Virus record (IMG/VR): IMGVR_UViG_3300050821_020018
Location: 1 to 20,612 of that record
Source of the DNA: a virus
DNA: 20,612 nt
Reading direction: 5' to 3' (one strand)
This document shows, in pieces, positions 1,723-20,612 of this stretch (position 1 is the first letter of the stretch; the number at the start of each line of letters is the position of its first letter). Position numbers and translations under genes: made by a program. The notes below the pieces were generated by a model. That model did not search any database, was not told the DNA's origin, and saw only the letters and a list, made by a program, of their open reading frames with translations.

Positions 1723-2462
1723 TTTATCCCATTTCTTAGATTCTTTATTTCTCTAATCCTATTCATAGCTGTCTGGAACTTAGATTTAGGCATATCGGCA
1801 ATAGATTGTATTTTCAATCCATCCAAAACCATCTCACCAATATCAGGATAGCCTTGTAACTCATACTGAGCCTCATCAAGCTGTTCCTTGGTTATAGTCT
1901 CATAGGATTGTTCTTTAGGATTATACTTCGTATTCAAAGCCACTCCCTTGGAGGCAACTTCTCGTTGATCATGAACTGCAAGTTCACCATCATCATCTTC
2001 ATCCCCCGTTACAACACCGATAAGGGCAGCAAGGGAATATCTCTTTAAGAAAGTTATATAACTTCCTAAGGCCTGAATATCAGGTTTAGCAGGAACAATT
2101 CTCATGCGAGATTCAATCCACTGCCCAGATGAATGCCCCAGAATAGTATGAAGAATATTCTGTCCATCATCATTGGGAAGAATCTGTTGTATAACAGATA
2201 GGTTATTTTTAGCCAATGGCCCTCGGCAAGCTTTAACGATTTCAGCAAGATCCGCATAGCGAGACTTAAAGAAGGGATTTACAGCACTTAGGCTCGCCGT
2301 TCTTATCTCAGACTGAGCTTTAGCCAGGGCAGAGAAAAGTTCGTTTAAATCGGCTGATTTATTCGGAATTGAAGGCCTGTTCTTTTCTTCTTTGTAAGAC
2401 TCTACTTTTTCAGAGAGTTCTTTAATTGAATCGAGTATTCGTAAAAGTTCAATTGATTCCAT
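1719..2462 (-). CDS. erf: Erf-family single-strand DNA annealing protein
   Basis: This 247-residue protein matches the ERF superfamily of phage recombinases, which anneal complementary single strands during recombination and genome circularisation. Visible hallmarks run from about residue 44 to 157: LAKAQSEI, the segment NPFFKSRYADLAEIVKACRG, HSSGQWI, then QALGSYITFLKRYSLAALIG and the acidic TGDEDDDG. A short N-terminal coiled coil precedes the core, and a Lys-rich C-terminal tail follows. The length is typical. It sits in a leftward early operon with a YqaJ-tail-like gene, the usual neighbourhood of annealing proteins with an exonuclease, although no complete exonuclease is seen here. Its stop overlaps the next start. 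Confidence 0.9.
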   Translation of the reverse strand: MESIELLRILDSIKELSEKVESYKEEKNRPSIPNKSADLNELFSALAKAQSEIRTASLSAVNPFFKSRYADLAEIVKACRGPLAKNNLSVIQQILPNDDGQNILHTILGHSSGQWIESRMRIVPAKPDIQALGSYITFLKRYSLAALIGVVTGDEDDDGELAVHDQREVASKGVALNTKYNPKEQSYETITKEQLDEAQYELQGYPDIGEMVLDGLKIQSIADMPKSKFQTAMNRIREIKNLRNGIK

Positions 2463-2736
2463 CTTTATCCTTTAATACTATTTCTTTCCAACCATCAACA
2501 CTTTGTATAAATAAAGCCAATGGTGCTGTAATATCATATTGCATAGTTTTGGTTTTTATCCATACTACGCCTGGTGGTGCTTTATCTTCTATGGTCGGAG
2601 TTCTAATGCTTATAATTGTACGATATTTTAAACATAGGCATTTATCTTCACACAACCAATTATTAATAAAAACTATGGAAAATATGATAATAATAATTGA
2701 TGCCATCCATCCAATAAGTATTAGAACTTCACTCAT
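2449..2736 (-). CDS. Small membrane-anchored hypothetical protein
   Basis: I prefer the internal ATG at 2736 (MSEVLILIGWMASIIIIIFS) over the earlier ATG at 2754. It is preceded by GGGGGA and overlaps the upstream stop by only 8 bases. The product has 95 residues: one N-terminal transmembrane helix, then a Cys-containing linker, then a probably cytoplasmic beta-rich segment ending WKEIVLKDKDGIN. The gene overlaps the Erf start by 14 bases, so the two are coupled. No family is recognised. Confidence 0.6.
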   Translation of the reverse strand: MSEVLILIGWMASIIIIIFSIVFINNWLCEDKCLCLKYRTIISIRTPTIEDKAPPGVVWIKTKTMQYDITAPLALFIQSVDGWKEIVLKDKDGIN

Positions 2737-11569: not shown

Positions 11570-11893
11570 ATGGCAATAAGATACCATCAAACAAATAAAG
11601 ATCGCATGCATGAACGACGCGGTGAAGAAAGATCGATGCATCGCATGGCTTCAATGCACGGTGAATATGCTGGTGCAGAACCACGCAGACGTCAGGAAAT
11701 GGAAGATGCTGGCATGATCCATGAAGATCACTCTAAGATCGCTAATCTTCCTCAAGAAGTTATGATTAAGTCCTATCCTTATGCAGGAGCTAAAATGCCT
11801 GATGGATTGGATGATACTATTCGTGGTGTTGATATGCAAATGGATTATGATAATTCCAAGCGTAAAGAACACTTTTATCCCAAGAAGGTTTAA
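11570..11893 (+). CDS. Small late protein, paralogue of the 12636 gene
   Basis: The 107-residue protein has a basic, Met/Arg/His-rich N-terminus (DRMHERRGEERSMHRMASMH), then a core 'EPRRRQEMEDAGMIHEDHSK' and 'NLPQEVMIKSYPYAG'. The same core pattern (PRR..E..DAGM..ED.S...NL.......YP) recurs in the protein at 12636-12929, so the two are paralogues. ATG follows GAAAGG about 8 bases upstream. Its location between portal and scaffold suggests a minor virion or head-assembly component. The exact role is unknown. Confidence 0.6.
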   Translation: MAIRYHQTNKDRMHERRGEERSMHRMASMHGEYAGAEPRRRQEMEDAGMIHEDHSKIANLPQEVMIKSYPYAGAKMPDGLDDTIRGVDMQMDYDNSKRKEHFYPKKV

Positions 11894-11974
11894 GTTGTTA
11901 GAAGTTTTTAAATTGTTTTTTATAACAATATAAAGTAGGCTTGTGTCATAGATAATCATTATTATGAGGAATGT

Positions 11975-12502
11975 ATGGCACAAGGAAAACTTCTAGATTG
12001 TTTAATAATAAGTAATGGAATTGAACATAAAATAACAACCAAGCATCCTGTTTATAGATTGAGGTATACGATTTTGACTCGATGTTATAATGCGGCCAAA
12101 AGAGATTTTCCTTATTATCAAGGCAGAGGAATAAAGGTTTTCGGTGAATGGATAGTTGATCAAAATTCTTTCTTCCAATGGTGTTTTGATAATGGATGGT
12201 CCCAGGGATTAGCATTAGACAGAAAGGATCCTGATAAAGATTATACGCCAGAAAATTGTCAATTTATTTCTAAAAAAAATAATTTAGAAAAAATGCATCA
12301 ACAAAGAGAGTTGATCGGAGAAACTGCTCCTCATGCAATCCTTAAGGAAAAACAAGTTTTAGAAATAAAAAAATTGCTTAATATGGGAGTTACCTGTGTT
12401 AGGATAGCAAGAGACTTTGGAGTATCCAAGGGCGCAATTTCAATGATAAAGAGAGGTGCTAACTGGAAACATTTAATAGAGGAGACAGAATGCCATCAAT
12501 GA
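11975..12502 (+). CDS. Freestanding HNH-type homing endonuclease
   Basis: The 175-residue protein carries the phage His-Me-finger endonuclease pattern: RLRYTILTRCYNAAKRDFPY, YYQGRGIKVFGEW (47-59), FFQWCFDNGW, LALDRKDPDKDYTPENC (79-95), then NN. The C-terminus (120-168) is a helix-turn-helix for target binding (LNMGVTCVRIARDFGVSKGA). Such genes cut intron-less or gene-less alleles and spread by repair. It sits in its own transcription-ready slot with GAGGA before ATG. It separates two paralogous late genes, consistent with insertion. It belongs to the same class as the endonuclease at 17708-18373, but lacks the zinc-ribbon repeats of that protein. Confidence 0.8.
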   Translation: MAQGKLLDCLIISNGIEHKITTKHPVYRLRYTILTRCYNAAKRDFPYYQGRGIKVFGEWIVDQNSFFQWCFDNGWSQGLALDRKDPDKDYTPENCQFISKKNNLEKMHQQRELIGETAPHAILKEKQVLEIKKLLNMGVTCVRIARDFGVSKGAISMIKRGANWKHLIEETECHQ

Positions 12503-12639
12503 TAAGAATACAAGGTAAACCAAAGAAGATTGCTTACGCAATTCTGGGTAAGCCTGCCAATATGAGTGAGAAATATACTCCGCTCCAATCCAAAATTAAT
12601 AAGCGATTAATATGGGAAGAAACCATAAAGGTGAGATGA
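12490..12639 (+). CDS. Small basic protein overlapping endonuclease end
   Basis: This 49-residue ORF (MPSMIRIQGKPKKIAYAILG at the start) has GGAGA before ATG. It overlaps the end of the endonuclease by 13 bases, and its TGA overlaps the ATGATG of the next gene. The double coupling supports expression. It is basic with one Trp, and no family is recognised. Confidence 0.4.
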   Translation: MPSMIRIQGKPKKIAYAILGKPANMSEKYTPLQSKINKRLIWEETIKVR

Positions 12640-12929
12640 TGAAAAAAGGTGTAGGAAAAGCGCTAAGTCGCAAGCAATCAAGAGAGACTGATAAAGACAT
12701 GCAATCAATGGAGCGTGCTCAAAGTCAGGATAAATTACTCCGTGTTCGTGATATGAGAAGCAAGTTCTTTGGTGGGATAGATCCACGACGAAAATGGGAA
12801 GTAGCAGATGCTGGTATGGTTCAAGAAGATCAATCGGCTATGTCCAATCTTTCTATGGATTTTGTGCATACTGAATATCCCACATTCTCTTTTTATTCTA
12901 ATCCTTATAGCGATGATACGGTGGACTGA
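12636..12929 (+). CDS. Small late protein, paralogue of the 11570 gene
   Basis: The start at 12636 is preferred over ATG at 12612. It follows AAGGTGAG directly and overlaps the upstream TGA, giving a 97-residue product (MMKKGVGKALSRKQSRETDK). The core DPRRKWEVADAGMVQEDQSA plus NLSMDFVHTEYP matches the paralogue at 11570-11893. The N-terminal region is very basic, the C-terminus aromatic and acidic. The two paralogues bracket the homing endonuclease. A minor head component is likely from position only. Confidence 0.6.
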   Translation: MMKKGVGKALSRKQSRETDKDMQSMERAQSQDKLLRVRDMRSKFFGGIDPRRKWEVADAGMVQEDQSAMSNLSMDFVHTEYPTFSFYSNPYSDDTVD

Positions 12930-17707: not shown

Positions 17708-18373
17708 CTATTTCTTTAAATTCCAAACCACCGGTCTTTTTCTTCTGTTATTGGAATTTTCTTTGGGAGTAACCCATCTACAATTACCAGGTTCATAATT
17801 ACCATTATTATCTATTCTATCTATTTGGTAACCCTTTGGCTTCTCGCCCATATCCTCAAAGAAACTCTTAAAGGTAAGCCATCGTTCACATATTTTTATA
17901 CCACGACCACCATATGATTTATAGTTATGATTATCTTCGTCAAGACAGCGAGCTTTCATCGTCTGCCATGTATAATATGTTGGAGTGCCTTCCATACCAT
18001 GTATTTTTACATTACATACTTGGCATGATTTAGGCCTTCTTATTTTCATTCTAGAAGTAGACATAGTCAGTTCTTTGCCACATTCACATTTGCATATGAT
18101 GGTTCTTTGTTGTGCTTTGGTGGGAATTCCTTCACTAATAACGGTCCATTTACCGAATTTTTTACCTATGTATTCTTTTGGGTCTATATATAAGTCTTTA
18201 TCTCTACATTCTCTACATCTAGTAGATCGACCATGTTTTAAATCGGTCGCCCGTACAGGTTTAACGGCGCCACATTCACATTCACATTCATAATATTTGA
18301 ATACTGTTGCTCTATTTTGTTCTATATATACTTGCTCCAAAACAGTCCAACTCCCATATTTTTGTCCTACCAT
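17708..18373 (-). CDS. HNH-type endonuclease with two zinc-ribbon repeats
   Basis: The 221-residue protein has two N-terminal repeats, residues 1-57 and 68-120. Each starts with a 'G..YG.WTV' strand and carries C-x-C-x-C then a C-x2-C (C30/C32/C34 with C53/C56; C94/C96/C98 with C117/C120), probable zinc-binding DNA-recognition modules. The nuclease part (126-211) shows YYTWQTMKARCLDEDNHNYK, YGGRGIKICERWLTF, YQIDRIDNNGNYEPGNCRW and ENSNNRR, the His-Me-finger phage endonuclease pattern. AAGGA precedes ATG. It lies antisense and directly upstream of the intron-split capsid gene, so it may be a mobile gene that spreads this locus. It is not inside a recognisable intron. Confidence 0.8.
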   Translation of the reverse strand: MVGQKYGSWTVLEQVYIEQNRATVFKYYECECECGAVKPVRATDLKHGRSTRCRECRDKDLYIDPKEYIGKKFGKWTVISEGIPTKAQQRTIICKCECGKELTMSTSRMKIRRPKSCQVCNVKIHGMEGTPTYYTWQTMKARCLDEDNHNYKSYGGRGIKICERWLTFKSFFEDMGEKPKGYQIDRIDNNGNYEPGNCRWVTPKENSNNRRKRPVVWNLKK

Positions 18374-18569: not shown

Positions 18570-20612
18570 ATGGCAATAACCACGACCGGGACACTCCCAA
18601 GTCCTGTCCAACAGTCATTTTCTTACAAGCTTCTCTCAGTTCCCGTGCCTATTTGTAATTATTGGGCACTTTAAACCTTCTCTAATTGACTTGGAAACCT
18701 AAAGCAAATTGCCAAGGTGACAAGGCGGAAGCGAAAGCACCGTGAACGACTTAACGAGAGGGGCTCCTAAAAGAGCATGCGAAAGTCTGGACTCTGATCG
18801 AAAGACAGAGAGGGAGATTCGAAGAAGTTTCCCCGCCAAATAGAAAAGCTTCATAAATATTTGGTCAAAATAAGTAACAGATAGTGAATATGATCCACAA
18901 AATACCGGCAATGCGTAAGAATTTACCACGTAACGGTGGTAATACTTTACGTATGCGTAGGTATAACGCTCTTAACACAGCGATGGTTCCTTTAGGGAAT
19001 TCTGGAGTAACGCCACCACCACAAAACTTAACTGCGATCGATATCGATGCTAAAGTTTCGTTTTACGGTAAATGTGCCGTAATAGTTTAACGTCAAGACA
19101 TATGTAACGTTAAACGAGCAGGTTGATAAATAGTGATCTTTGAAATTCTTGGTTTTGTAAGCAGATAGCCTGCTTTAAATCAGCCCTGATTGAGGTGGAA
19201 GCGCTAACGTAAAGACGAGCGTGACACTGCGCAAGGGTTTAATAGTAATAAATTACGTTCCTAATTTATTTATTTCTTTTATTTTTTTATAGAGTAGTCG
19301 ACGAACTTCTTGAACTTCAAATGTTACTAGCCATCCATCTTTTTTTGTATGCATAAAATCAATAATAATTTGGGCGTGTTGTTTCTTGATAATCATATAA
19401 GGTAAGCATTCTTGAAGAAGTTTAGAAGCATTAAATGAGTATATACGCCACTGATAACATTGCTTTCTTCCTTTAATAAGTTTTCTTTTATGAACTTTCC
19501 CACCAAACTTTGATTCAAGCCAGTTCATAAGATCTAATGAAGTGTTAACAATTATTATCCTTATTGAATAGTAGTCTGTCTTTCTATCATCTTTTATTGG
19601 ATTCTGAATATCAATAGCTAATGATCCTTCACCATCAATAATTGCAGCTAAGTAAACTATATCATCATGTGTATTCATATTATCCTTAATTCATATATTC
19701 AAGCGTACCATAAATACTATTAAATGTCTAGCGTAAGAGACTTAGGCGGGTAGACACCGAAAGGTGAAGCGAAAGTCCAATCTTTATGGAGACATAAAGA
19801 GAGAGGAATAACAAGATTCTCCGCCACTTGAGTGGTCATAAAAGTAATAGAATTGTACCTTACAAAATCAAGACCCTAAAAAGAATGGGGTCTATAAACT
19901 TTCTCTGATTGACTTGGAAGCCTACGGCATAAGCTAAGGTGACAGGGGCGAAGGATTTTTTAAAGGATGTTCATGATAACGCGAGTTAAGATTTCTCATT
20001 TCATTCATAAGTTTAAGACGCTCTTCGGTAATTTCTGGAGAAAGTCTTTTATTGCCAATGTTTTTGGCGGTGAGTCTATATTTAATCATAACTTTGCATT
20101 GTTTTCTTTTTATTACGAGATAACAAAGAACTTTTGGAAGCAAATAATCCAACATTGGACCAGTTGCTTGCCAAGTATAAACTGGACGAGTGAATTTTTT
20201 CTTACTAGTCCATCTGTATCTCGAATCTTTAGATCCACCGAAAAAGTCTTCAAGCCATACTATGAGTGGTTCATCACAGCTTGTTATTTTAAGCATGCTA
20301 TGCCATTGAAGTCCATTTCCATATTTGCCTTGCTTTACATGGCCAATATAGAAACAGCCTTCTCCGTCAATAAGTCCTGCAAGATAAGCAATCATCCACT
20401 GATCATGATTGGTATGAAATTTGACTATTTTTCCCATGAATTTCCTTTCGTTTATAATAGTATAATACTAAACGAACAAAAAATCCACGCTGAACGACTA
20501 AGTGAGAAAGCCCATATTCTGGGATGCGATAGTCTGACCTCCAATGGAAACATGGAGAAGATGGGCCGAAGAGCCTGTCTCGCCTAGAAATAGGTCGTAA
20601 AAGTAACAGAAT
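18570..20612 (+). CDS. Major capsid protein, N4-gp56 family, split by group I introns (3' partial)
   Basis: Exons join(18570-18650, 18887-19069, 19098-19123, 19856-19877, continuing past 20612) give 104 continuous codons. Exon 1 encodes MAITTTGTLPSPVQQSFSYK and ends LLSVPVP. Exon 2 begins NMIHKIPAMRKNLPRNGG and ends DIDAKVSFYG. The 26-nt exon gives TYVTLNEQV with the 22-nt exon completing the Val codon and adding TLQNQDP. The order 'FYG-T-Y-V...NEQV-TLQNQDP' matches N4-gp56-type capsid N-termini as I know them. All joins keep frame and all lie after U in a P1 helix with the next intron. The gene encodes the shell subunit. The remainder lies beyond the window. Without splicing, translation would stop within intron 1 after 34 codons. 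Confidence 0.85.
18651..18886 (+). mobile_element. Group I intron A in capsid gene, ORF-less
   Basis: This 236-base intron follows exon end GTGCCT (18645-18650), which pairs with the guide GGGCAC (18664-18669) in P1, with U18650.G18664 at the splice site. The intron ends in G18886. P10 is possible between TATT (18660-18663) and exon AATA (18887-18890). The core shows ATTGACTTGGAAACCT, GAACGACTTAACGAGAG, and GCGAAAGTCTGG (18779-18790), the J8/7-P7 (S element) region. It has no open frame and is a compact ribozyme. Its core is similar to that of intron C. Confidence 0.85.
19070..19097 (+). other. 28-nt coreless intron-like insert in capsid gene
   Basis: Removing 19070-19097 joins FYG to TYVTLNEQV in frame. 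The exon end TTACGGT (19063-19069) pairs with GCCGTAA (19076-19082), with U19069.G19076. ATGT (19072-19075), directly before that G, pairs with the downstream exon start ACAT (19098-19101), the P10 geometry. The insert ends in G19097. It shifts the frame and brings an in-frame TAA (19088-19090). It has every boundary signal of a group I intron but no room for a core. Confidence 0.75.
19124..19855 (+). mobile_element. Group I intron B with antisense homing gene
   Basis: This 732-base intron follows exon AGCAGGT (19117-19123), which pairs with the guide GCCTGCT (19168-19174), U19123.G19168. It ends at G19855, joining GT to T and so completing a Val codon. The 5' core half (19175-19252) includes TTGAGGTGGAAGCGC. 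The 3' half (19679-19855) includes GCGAAAGTCC (19769-19778), the S-element region. The open frame between them is on the - strand. AAGCAG/CTGCTT (19159-19175) can form a hairpin that competes with P1. Confidence 0.8.
19253..19678 (-). CDS. LAGLIDADG homing endonuclease (intron B)
   Basis: The 141-residue protein has a single motif, YLAAIIDGEGSL (9-20; catalytic Asp at 15), followed by the usual alpha-beta layout (YYSIRIIIVNTSLDLMNWL, then KFGGKVHKR, CYQWRIYSF, and YMIIKKQHAQIIIDF). Single-motif members work as homodimers that cleave the intron-less allele. The gene has its own AAGGA before ATG and is transcribed opposite to the capsid gene, so it cannot be translated from the capsid transcript. 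It needs its own promoter, not clearly seen. It fills the loop between the two intron core halves without entering them. Confidence 0.9.
   Translation of the reverse strand: MNTHDDIVYLAAIIDGEGSLAIDIQNPIKDDRKTDYYSIRIIIVNTSLDLMNWLESKFGGKVHKRKLIKGRKQCYQWRIYSFNASKLLQECLPYMIIKKQHAQIIIDFMHTKKDGWLVTFEVQEVRRLLYKKIKEINKLGT
19878..20612 (+). mobile_element. Group I intron C with antisense homing gene, 3' partial
   Basis: The exon end AGACCCT (19871-19877) pairs with GGGGTCT (19887-19893) in P1 with U19877.G19887. The 5' core (CTCTGATTGACTTGGAAGCC) is nearly identical to that of intron A. The 3' core shows TGAACGACTAAGTGAGA (20491-20507) and GCGATAGTCTGA (20526-20537). The end AAAAGTAACAGAAT at the window edge matches the last bases of introns A and B, so the 3' splice site should lie within a few bases beyond 20612. 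Confidence 0.85.
19934..20437 (-). CDS. LAGLIDADG homing endonuclease (intron C)
   Basis: The 167-residue protein shows one motif, YLAGLIDGEGCFYIGH (18-33; catalytic Asp at 24). Then come MLKITSCDEPLIVWLEDFFG, YTWQATGPMLDYLLPKVLCY and LVIKRKQCKVMIKYRLTAKN, typical of single-motif homodimeric enzymes. AAAGGA precedes ATG. The gene is antisense to the capsid gene. Its 3' end, including the TAG, lies in the 5' intron core (19934-19975), so coding sequence has spread over ribozyme sequence. It is only distantly similar to the intron B enzyme. Confidence 0.9.
   Translation of the reverse strand: MGKIVKFHTNHDQWMIAYLAGLIDGEGCFYIGHVKQGKYGNGLQWHSMLKITSCDEPLIVWLEDFFGGSKDSRYRWTSKKKFTRPVYTWQATGPMLDYLLPKVLCYLVIKRKQCKVMIKYRLTAKNIGNKRLSPEITEERLKLMNEMRNLNSRYHEHPLKNPSPLSP

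Follow-up and report, generated by a model that had tools for sequence, protein, structure and literature searches.

The 28-nt insert that interrupts the major-capsid gene of a 20.6-kb linear IMG/VR virus record (the window, that is, the whole stretch of 20,612 nt analysed here) is very probably a non-autonomous, coreless group I mini-intron, with one core, that of the following intron B, serving two introns. This reading builds on direct observations, namely the sequence of the insert, its pairings and their covariation, the geometry of these pairings, the co-occurrence with a second intron and the selection on the coding sequence.

The window encodes a GpA-type terminase and a P22-like portal, and its 3' end falls within the capsid gene (PHROG 1357, assigned via an intronless relative), which is interrupted by several group I-type introns. 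The exon borders (Table 1) were set by alignment to intronless relatives, which are at most 92% identical over the first 104 residues. The contig ends with AAAAGTAACAGAAT (20593-20612), a motif found repeatedly at the 3' ends of the introns; the assembly may therefore have been interrupted by an intron repeat. Just 5' of the capsid gene, an open reading frame (ORF) for an HNH endonuclease (PHROG 374; 17708-18373, minus strand) may be free-standing or may belong to another mobile element. At 11570-12929, a 175-aa ORF is flanked by two small genes sharing similar motifs (RRRQEMEDAGM and RRKWEVADAGM), an arrangement that looks as if an insertion had occurred beside a duplicated gene. Phage tRNA genes are present in the capsid-bearing stretch of two relatives (L111, 5233-5306; L164, 8059-8132); the window has none. 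The capsid genes L002-L218 form a hot spot of group I-type introns, with at least 15 insertion sites and up to five introns per gene, and many of these introns hold antisense homing-endonuclease ORFs.

Table 1. Exons, introns and pairing elements of the capsid gene (positions in the window)
Feature	Position	Strand	Basis or remark
Capsid exon 1, codons 1-27	18570-18650	+	Alignment to intronless relatives
Intron A, full-length group I-type	18651-18886	+	U5'/G3' ends
Intron A pairings, P1 GUGCCU:GGGCAC and P10 UAUU:AAUA		+	By-eye reading
Capsid exon 2, codons 28-88, FYG at the end	18887-19069	+	Intronless relatives
P1, 5' strand UACGGU, end of the 5' exon	19064-19069	+	Covaries, UAC:GUA to UAU:AUA
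Putative coreless mini-intron, 28 nt	19070-19097	+	67 distinct homologues
P10 guide strand AUGU (partner ACAU, 19098-19101)	19072-19075	+	Variable pair covaries
P1, 3' strand, internal guide GCCGUA	19076-19081	+	P1 covariation across the family
Linker, 3 nt, J1/2 equivalent	19082-19084	+	Fixed register across the family
P2, 5' strand (guide) GUUUAACGU	19085-19093	+	Covariation and register
Capsid exon 3, 26 nt, TYVTLNEQ and GT	19098-19123	+	Intronless relatives
P2, 3' strand within the exon, ACGUUAAAC	19107-19115	+	Covariation and register
Intron B 8-bp P1, 5' strand GAGCAGGU, abuts P2 in the place of P2.1	19116-19123	+	
Intron B, full-length group I-type, proposed source of the shared core	19124-19855	+	Partial Rfam group I match, 19671-19799
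Intron B P1, 3' strand, internal guide GCCUGCUU	19168-19175	+	
Antisense homing-endonuclease-like ORF within intron B	19253-19678	-	PHROG 5046
Capsid exon 4, 22 nt	19856-19877	+	Intronless relatives
Intron C, up to the window end	19878-20612	+	Antisense LAGLIDADG ORF inside (19934-20437)

The first-pass annotation had proposed that the insert breaks the capsid frame, that its exact removal restores a join consistent with the family, and that its ends follow group I rules, and the alignments bore this out. The insert causes a frameshift and brings in a TAA stop at 19088-19090, and its removal yields the join FYG-TYVTLNEQV found in the family. The end of exon 2 pairs with the insert to form P1 with U19069.G19076 located at the 5' splice site; the seventh pair counted earlier is 19063-19082. 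P10 connects the insert with the first four nucleotides of exon 3, and the last base of the insert is G19097, followed after the 26-nt exon by intron B. The absence of a ribozyme core was likewise confirmed: P1, P10, linker, guide and tail use up all 28 nt, and the core that group I introns have of their own (P3-P9, with the guanosine-binding site in P7) is missing.

In four relatives, found via the endonuclease of intron C, this very codon is interrupted by an insert of 35-37 nt. For a wider search, viral contigs were scanned for exon 3 sequences without the preceding glycine codon and then subjected to spliced alignment. Altogether, mini-inserts of 28-59 nt at codon 88 were found in 90 capsid genes, which fall into 68 clusters at 95% DNA identity, or 60 at 85%, and contain 67 distinct insert/exon sequences. 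A scan of bacterial genomes yielded a single true case, a contig of an independently assembled MAG (L204) with a 37-nt insert identical to that of an IMG/VR contig (L089) in an otherwise diverged gene; the four remaining matches were unrelated. No credible case of a coreless insert was found in the TerL, portal and scaffold genes of the retrieved loci.

The splice-site signals are conserved throughout this family. In all 67 distinct sequences a U precedes the insert, a G terminates it and the insert cannot be read through, with an internal stop in 63 of them. The sequence just 5' of the insert is always UA(C/U)GGU, and codon 88 is GGU in 90 of 90 carriers, but in only 23 of 103 genes without the insert. 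The U.G pair at the splice-site end of P1 is invariant (67/67), and P1 is complete in every sequence, with one compensatory change: the standard form is UACGGU:GCCGUA, three sequences have UAUGGU:GCCAUA and one has GCUGUA as the 3' strand. The P10 pair at the wobble base of the threonine codon is G-C in 46 sequences, A-U in 10, U-A in six and C-G in five, without a single violation among the 67. This variation is covariation at a synonymous position, and the recurrence of the insert together with the covarying pairs at codon 88 far exceeds chance.

An additional helix, absent from the first-pass annotation, pairs a guide within the insert with the downstream exon. Across the family, a guide of about 9 nt begins 3 nt past P1, and its exon partner ends 8 nt before the 5' splice site of the next full intron. 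This spacing holds at four intron positions, that is, after codons 96.2, 104.2 and 116.2 with 8 nt, and in a lone case at 104.0 with 9 nt. The paired fraction over eight positions in this register is 93% for the 96.2 class (n = 45), 97% for 104.2 (n = 16) and 100% for 116.2 (n = 5). Alternative registers are mostly 20-60% paired, except for overlapping sub-registers of the same helix. The helix had been noted in two classes and was then predicted for the third, and the prediction held. By eye, some 10 of the 45 guides in the largest class need a mismatch or a one-base bulge in order to pair.

In 43 sequences from the largest class, the structure as a whole is 95% paired, compared with 34-44% when the strands are slid; double changes in the guide helix by itself number 91, versus 33 in shuffles and 11-24 in slid alignments. 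Guides form 8.13 of 9 pairs with their own exon and 6.28 with the exons of other phages in the class, and none of 20,000 permutations was as good. The guides of the 104.2 class form 8.6 of 9 pairs at their own position, but 3.1 of 9 where the 96.2 class would pair in that exon. Taken by itself, the 116.2 class lacks a permutation signal within the class, because its guides and partners are nearly invariant. RNAalifold recovers P1 and the guide helix unaided, and the fold of the window places P1, the guide helix and the P1 of intron B in immediate succession (z = -2.3). The distance of the guide partner to the insert's own 3' splice site varies from about 7 to 70 nt. The guide fits its own exon best and fails at the positions of other classes, which argues that the helix serves the next intron, and not the 3' splice site of the insert.

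A full intron follows the mini-insert in 72 of 72 testable genes (71 automatic calls, and L204 by eye). Genes without the insert have a full intron at those sites in 26 of 97 cases, a rate that is inflated by the way in which some of them were found. Full introns at those sites exist without a mini-insert; the converse was not seen. The P1 of the next intron has 8 bp in every codon-88 case, and therefore the guide helix directly abuts it. At Rfam's own thresholds, the window gave no match; at loose thresholds, intron B has a weak group I match of 21 bits, under the 50-bit cut-off, and the compact introns of relatives also score low. The group I identity proposed for intron B rests on its P1 and P10, its U and G ends, the partial model matches and the homology to the intron of L172 described below. 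A search with the intron B ORF retrieved no relatives, and the matches in isolated phages, two to intron A and one to intron C, were uninformative; one such record, ctn9Y15, has a different capsid. In one relative (L106), an Rfam alignment spans the mini-intron, the exon and the next intron and places the first helix on P1; it was not counted as support. The P1 loop of intron B (19124-19175) also holds CUUGGUUUUGUAAG, complementary to UUACAAAAUCAAG in exon 4 (19856-19877), which would be an unusually long P10-like pairing to the 3' exon, and it carries a conserved UCUUUGAAAUU stretch.

One relative, L172, has a single 333-nt intron at codon 88 that matches the Rfam group I model with 71.9 bits (locus 2222-2481, minus strand). 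The 5' part of this intron contains, in order, a P1 of the same sequence, UCU, a P2 (GCUUA:UAAGC), a P2.1 (ACAGG:CCUGU) and the core, and the P2.1 loop holds AUAGUUCUUUGAAAUU, a 16-nt stretch that several relatives have in the P1 loop of their intron B. Apparently, this intron is the unsplit form of the mini-intron plus intron B, as the single example of that layout. By comparison with it, the linker of the mini-intron would correspond to J1/2 and the P1 of intron B to P2.1, while P2 would be formed by the guide as its 5' strand and the exon partner as its 3' strand. Full-length introns with the same P1 are present at codon 88 in L111, L139, L142 and L172, and thus the mini-intron plausibly arose via loss or displacement of the core.

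The coding sequence 3' of the insert is intact and under purifying selection. Among 58 full-length spliced genes with mini-inserts there are no stops, and pN/pS is 0.14 upstream and 0.18 downstream of the insert, comparable to the values in genes without it. The distribution of identities points to mobility. L140, which has the mini-intron and intron C, and L079, which has neither, are 93-100% identical, but codons 81-104 are at 81-83%, and identical mini-introns occur in genes that are only 75% alike. From the comparisons L140/L079, L089/L204 and L145/L181, the mini-intron, the exon and the next intron appear to be transferred together, as a single cassette.

From conservation and anatomy we infer that the insert is spliced, that the core of intron B is used and in which order the events proceed. 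The mini-intron contains only P1, the P10 guide strand, a 3-nt linker resembling J1/2 and one half of P2, its 5' strand. The other half, the 3' strand, would be provided by the downstream exon, and the abutting P1 of intron B would replace P2.1 and lead to the core of intron B. In effect, this would be a group I intron that has its 3' splice site ahead of the core, within the loop of P2. In the proposed pathway, P2 forms and hangs the P1 of the mini-intron by 3 nt at the junction with the intron B core, where it would dock instead of the P1 of intron B and react with the bound guanosine. The core would then excise the 28 nt by two G-dependent transesterifications, via P10 and G19097. The guide would depart with the mini-intron and P2 would be lost, whereupon the P1 of intron B, now free, could dock and intron B be spliced. 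The order of splicing would thus be set by the removal of the mini-intron itself, which destroys the guide helix and frees the P1 of intron B. Because it has no core of its own, the mini-intron falls outside the group I introns in the strict sense, although it would work like one.

Even smaller inserts were found at codon 118, where spliced alignment without a minimum intron length revealed 4-5 nt (UACG, UAUG, UUCG or UAAUG) in eleven contigs of eight lineages. The carriers include L022, L043, L055, L108, L206, L207, L211 and L212; a U precedes the frame-breaking insert, and every carrier has a full intron at codon 144. In this case the guide sits in the exon: GCGGAG pairs with CUCCGU of the 5' exon and abuts the P1 strand UUAACGGU of the codon-144 intron. 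All carriers have the exon spelling GGCGGAGUUAACGGU; among 116 insert-free genes, two contain its GGCGGAG part. All 14 carrier rows show an 8-bp P1 in the codon-144 intron, compared with 6-7 bp in all 10 codon-144 introns that lack a micro-insert. P10 would comprise merely 2-3 bp, and covariation is lower than at codon 88 because codon choice leaves scant freedom. Other phages have full-length introns at codon 118. Inserts of 4 and of 5 nt give different net frame changes, so that one frameshift signal cannot account for both. These inserts are candidate micro-introns that would follow the same logic as the mini-introns at codon 88.

The first-pass annotation had listed three explanations for the insert, and the one in which a coreless intron is spliced by the core of its neighbour is strongly supported by the covarying P1 and P10, the guide helix and the obligatory downstream intron. 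The other two are disfavoured. Loss of the middle of an intron during assembly, by collapse of a full intron, might have been suspected from the several similar introns in the gene and from the contig that terminates inside one of them, but its probability is negligible: the insert recurs in about 90 contigs from many metagenomes and in the independent MAG, and several inserts are identical. Assembly error is excluded for the insert family. A relic of a deletion is conceivable, since four phages have a full-length intron with the same P1 at codon 88, but a dead relic in a non-functional capsid gene is extremely improbable, given that three helices are kept by compensatory changes in divergent lineages and that the downstream coding sequence is selected as in insert-free genes and devoid of stops. 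A relic that is tolerated through recoding, as had been suggested, does not explain why compensatory changes keep the pairings and why the terminal G is invariant, and the partner pattern is unfit for a ribosome jump.

Recoding of the T4 gene 60 type, in which the insert would be kept in the mRNA and hairpins would drive take-off at GGU and landing before ACN, is highly improbable on the same grounds and on others. The internal stops, the hairpin on the take-off side and the short length do resemble bypass gaps, but a matched landing codon is absent, as the insert ends in AAG, UUG, AUG, UAG and other triplets, never in GGN. Bypassing also leaves unexplained why P10 covaries with a synonymous wobble base, why the guide partner tracks the next intron over three distances and why a downstream intron is present in all testable genes; at codon 118, opposite frame changes would be needed for inserts of 4 and of 5 nt. 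It is also very unlikely that the insert is a minimal group I intron able to splice on its own, without its neighbour, as is reported for small introns of Phialophora, which likewise have P1, P10 and a pairing between the middle of the intron and the 3' exon, and one of which was reported to splice in vitro, according to the accessible text of that report (PMC3160393). However, 28 nt leave no space for P7 or another guanosine-binding site, and self-sufficiency is impossible for versions of 4-5 nt. Self-sufficient introns would be expected to occur without a downstream intron, but none was found, and the place of the exon partner is constant with respect to the next intron, but not to the 3' splice site at the end of the insert.

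Taken together, a coreless mini-intron served by the core of intron B is the preferred reading. We consider it likely that, more generally, phage group I cores act as cis splicing machines that remove upstream introns of 28-59 nt, and even of 4-5 nt, in a fixed order, before themselves. A full-text search of the open-licence literature retrieved no description of group I core sharing. Splicing signals would be embedded in the capsid coding sequence, and one core would serve two introns, with one 3' splice site upstream of the core. Core sharing becomes testable on one short transcript, and a route opens up for the shrinkage of introns to 28, perhaps 4, nucleotides. If the reading is correct for codon 118, the micro-introns would be the shortest introns known. 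For gene finders, a word of caution is warranted: "frameshifts" in phage capsid genes may be introns.

The mini-introns share with phage group I introns (T4 td and nrdB, Twort, SPO1, and the capsid intron of mycobacteriophage LittleE, PMC3706429) the U.G pair in P1, P10 and the terminal G, as well as the P2/P2.1 layout and antisense homing-endonuclease ORFs, which here reside in the neighbouring introns. Unlike these introns, they lack a P3-P9 core, their 3' splice site precedes the core that they appear to use, and P2 is partly coding exon. The small introns in the SSU rRNA of Phialophora are 63-75 nt long, contain P7 and end with U; the accessible text describes them as active alone with a long exon and reports no adjacent intron (PMC3160393). 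As far as that text allows a comparison, both groups are tiny and have P1, P10 and a helix that joins the intron to the 3' exon, whereas in our family P7 is absent, the terminal base is always G, a full intron always follows and the helix spacing is fixed (PMC3160393). In the exon-skipping neighbouring introns of Twort orf142 and SIOphi, too, two close group I introns interact within one phage gene, but each of them has a core and exons are skipped, whereas here one intron is coreless and no exon is lost (PMC11878797).

The bypass of T4 gene 60 and the mitochondrial byp elements also involve a short frame-breaking gap and a hairpin in a coding sequence; in the capsid genes, however, there are no matched take-off and landing codons, and group I signals and an intron-linked pairing are present instead. 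The closest conceptual analogue is the relation of spliceosomal to group II introns, in which coreless introns likewise obtain catalysis from outside, but here the chemistry would be that of group I, the core would act in cis from the adjacent intron, and it would serve one partner rather than being a general machine. The prevailing view derives spliceosomal introns from self-splicing ancestors that lost catalytic parts and then relied on an outside core. To our knowledge, no comparable loss-of-core step is known for group I introns. If the present reading is true, the mini-introns would represent the group I counterpart of this step from self-splicing to core dependence, taken in dozens of phage lineages.
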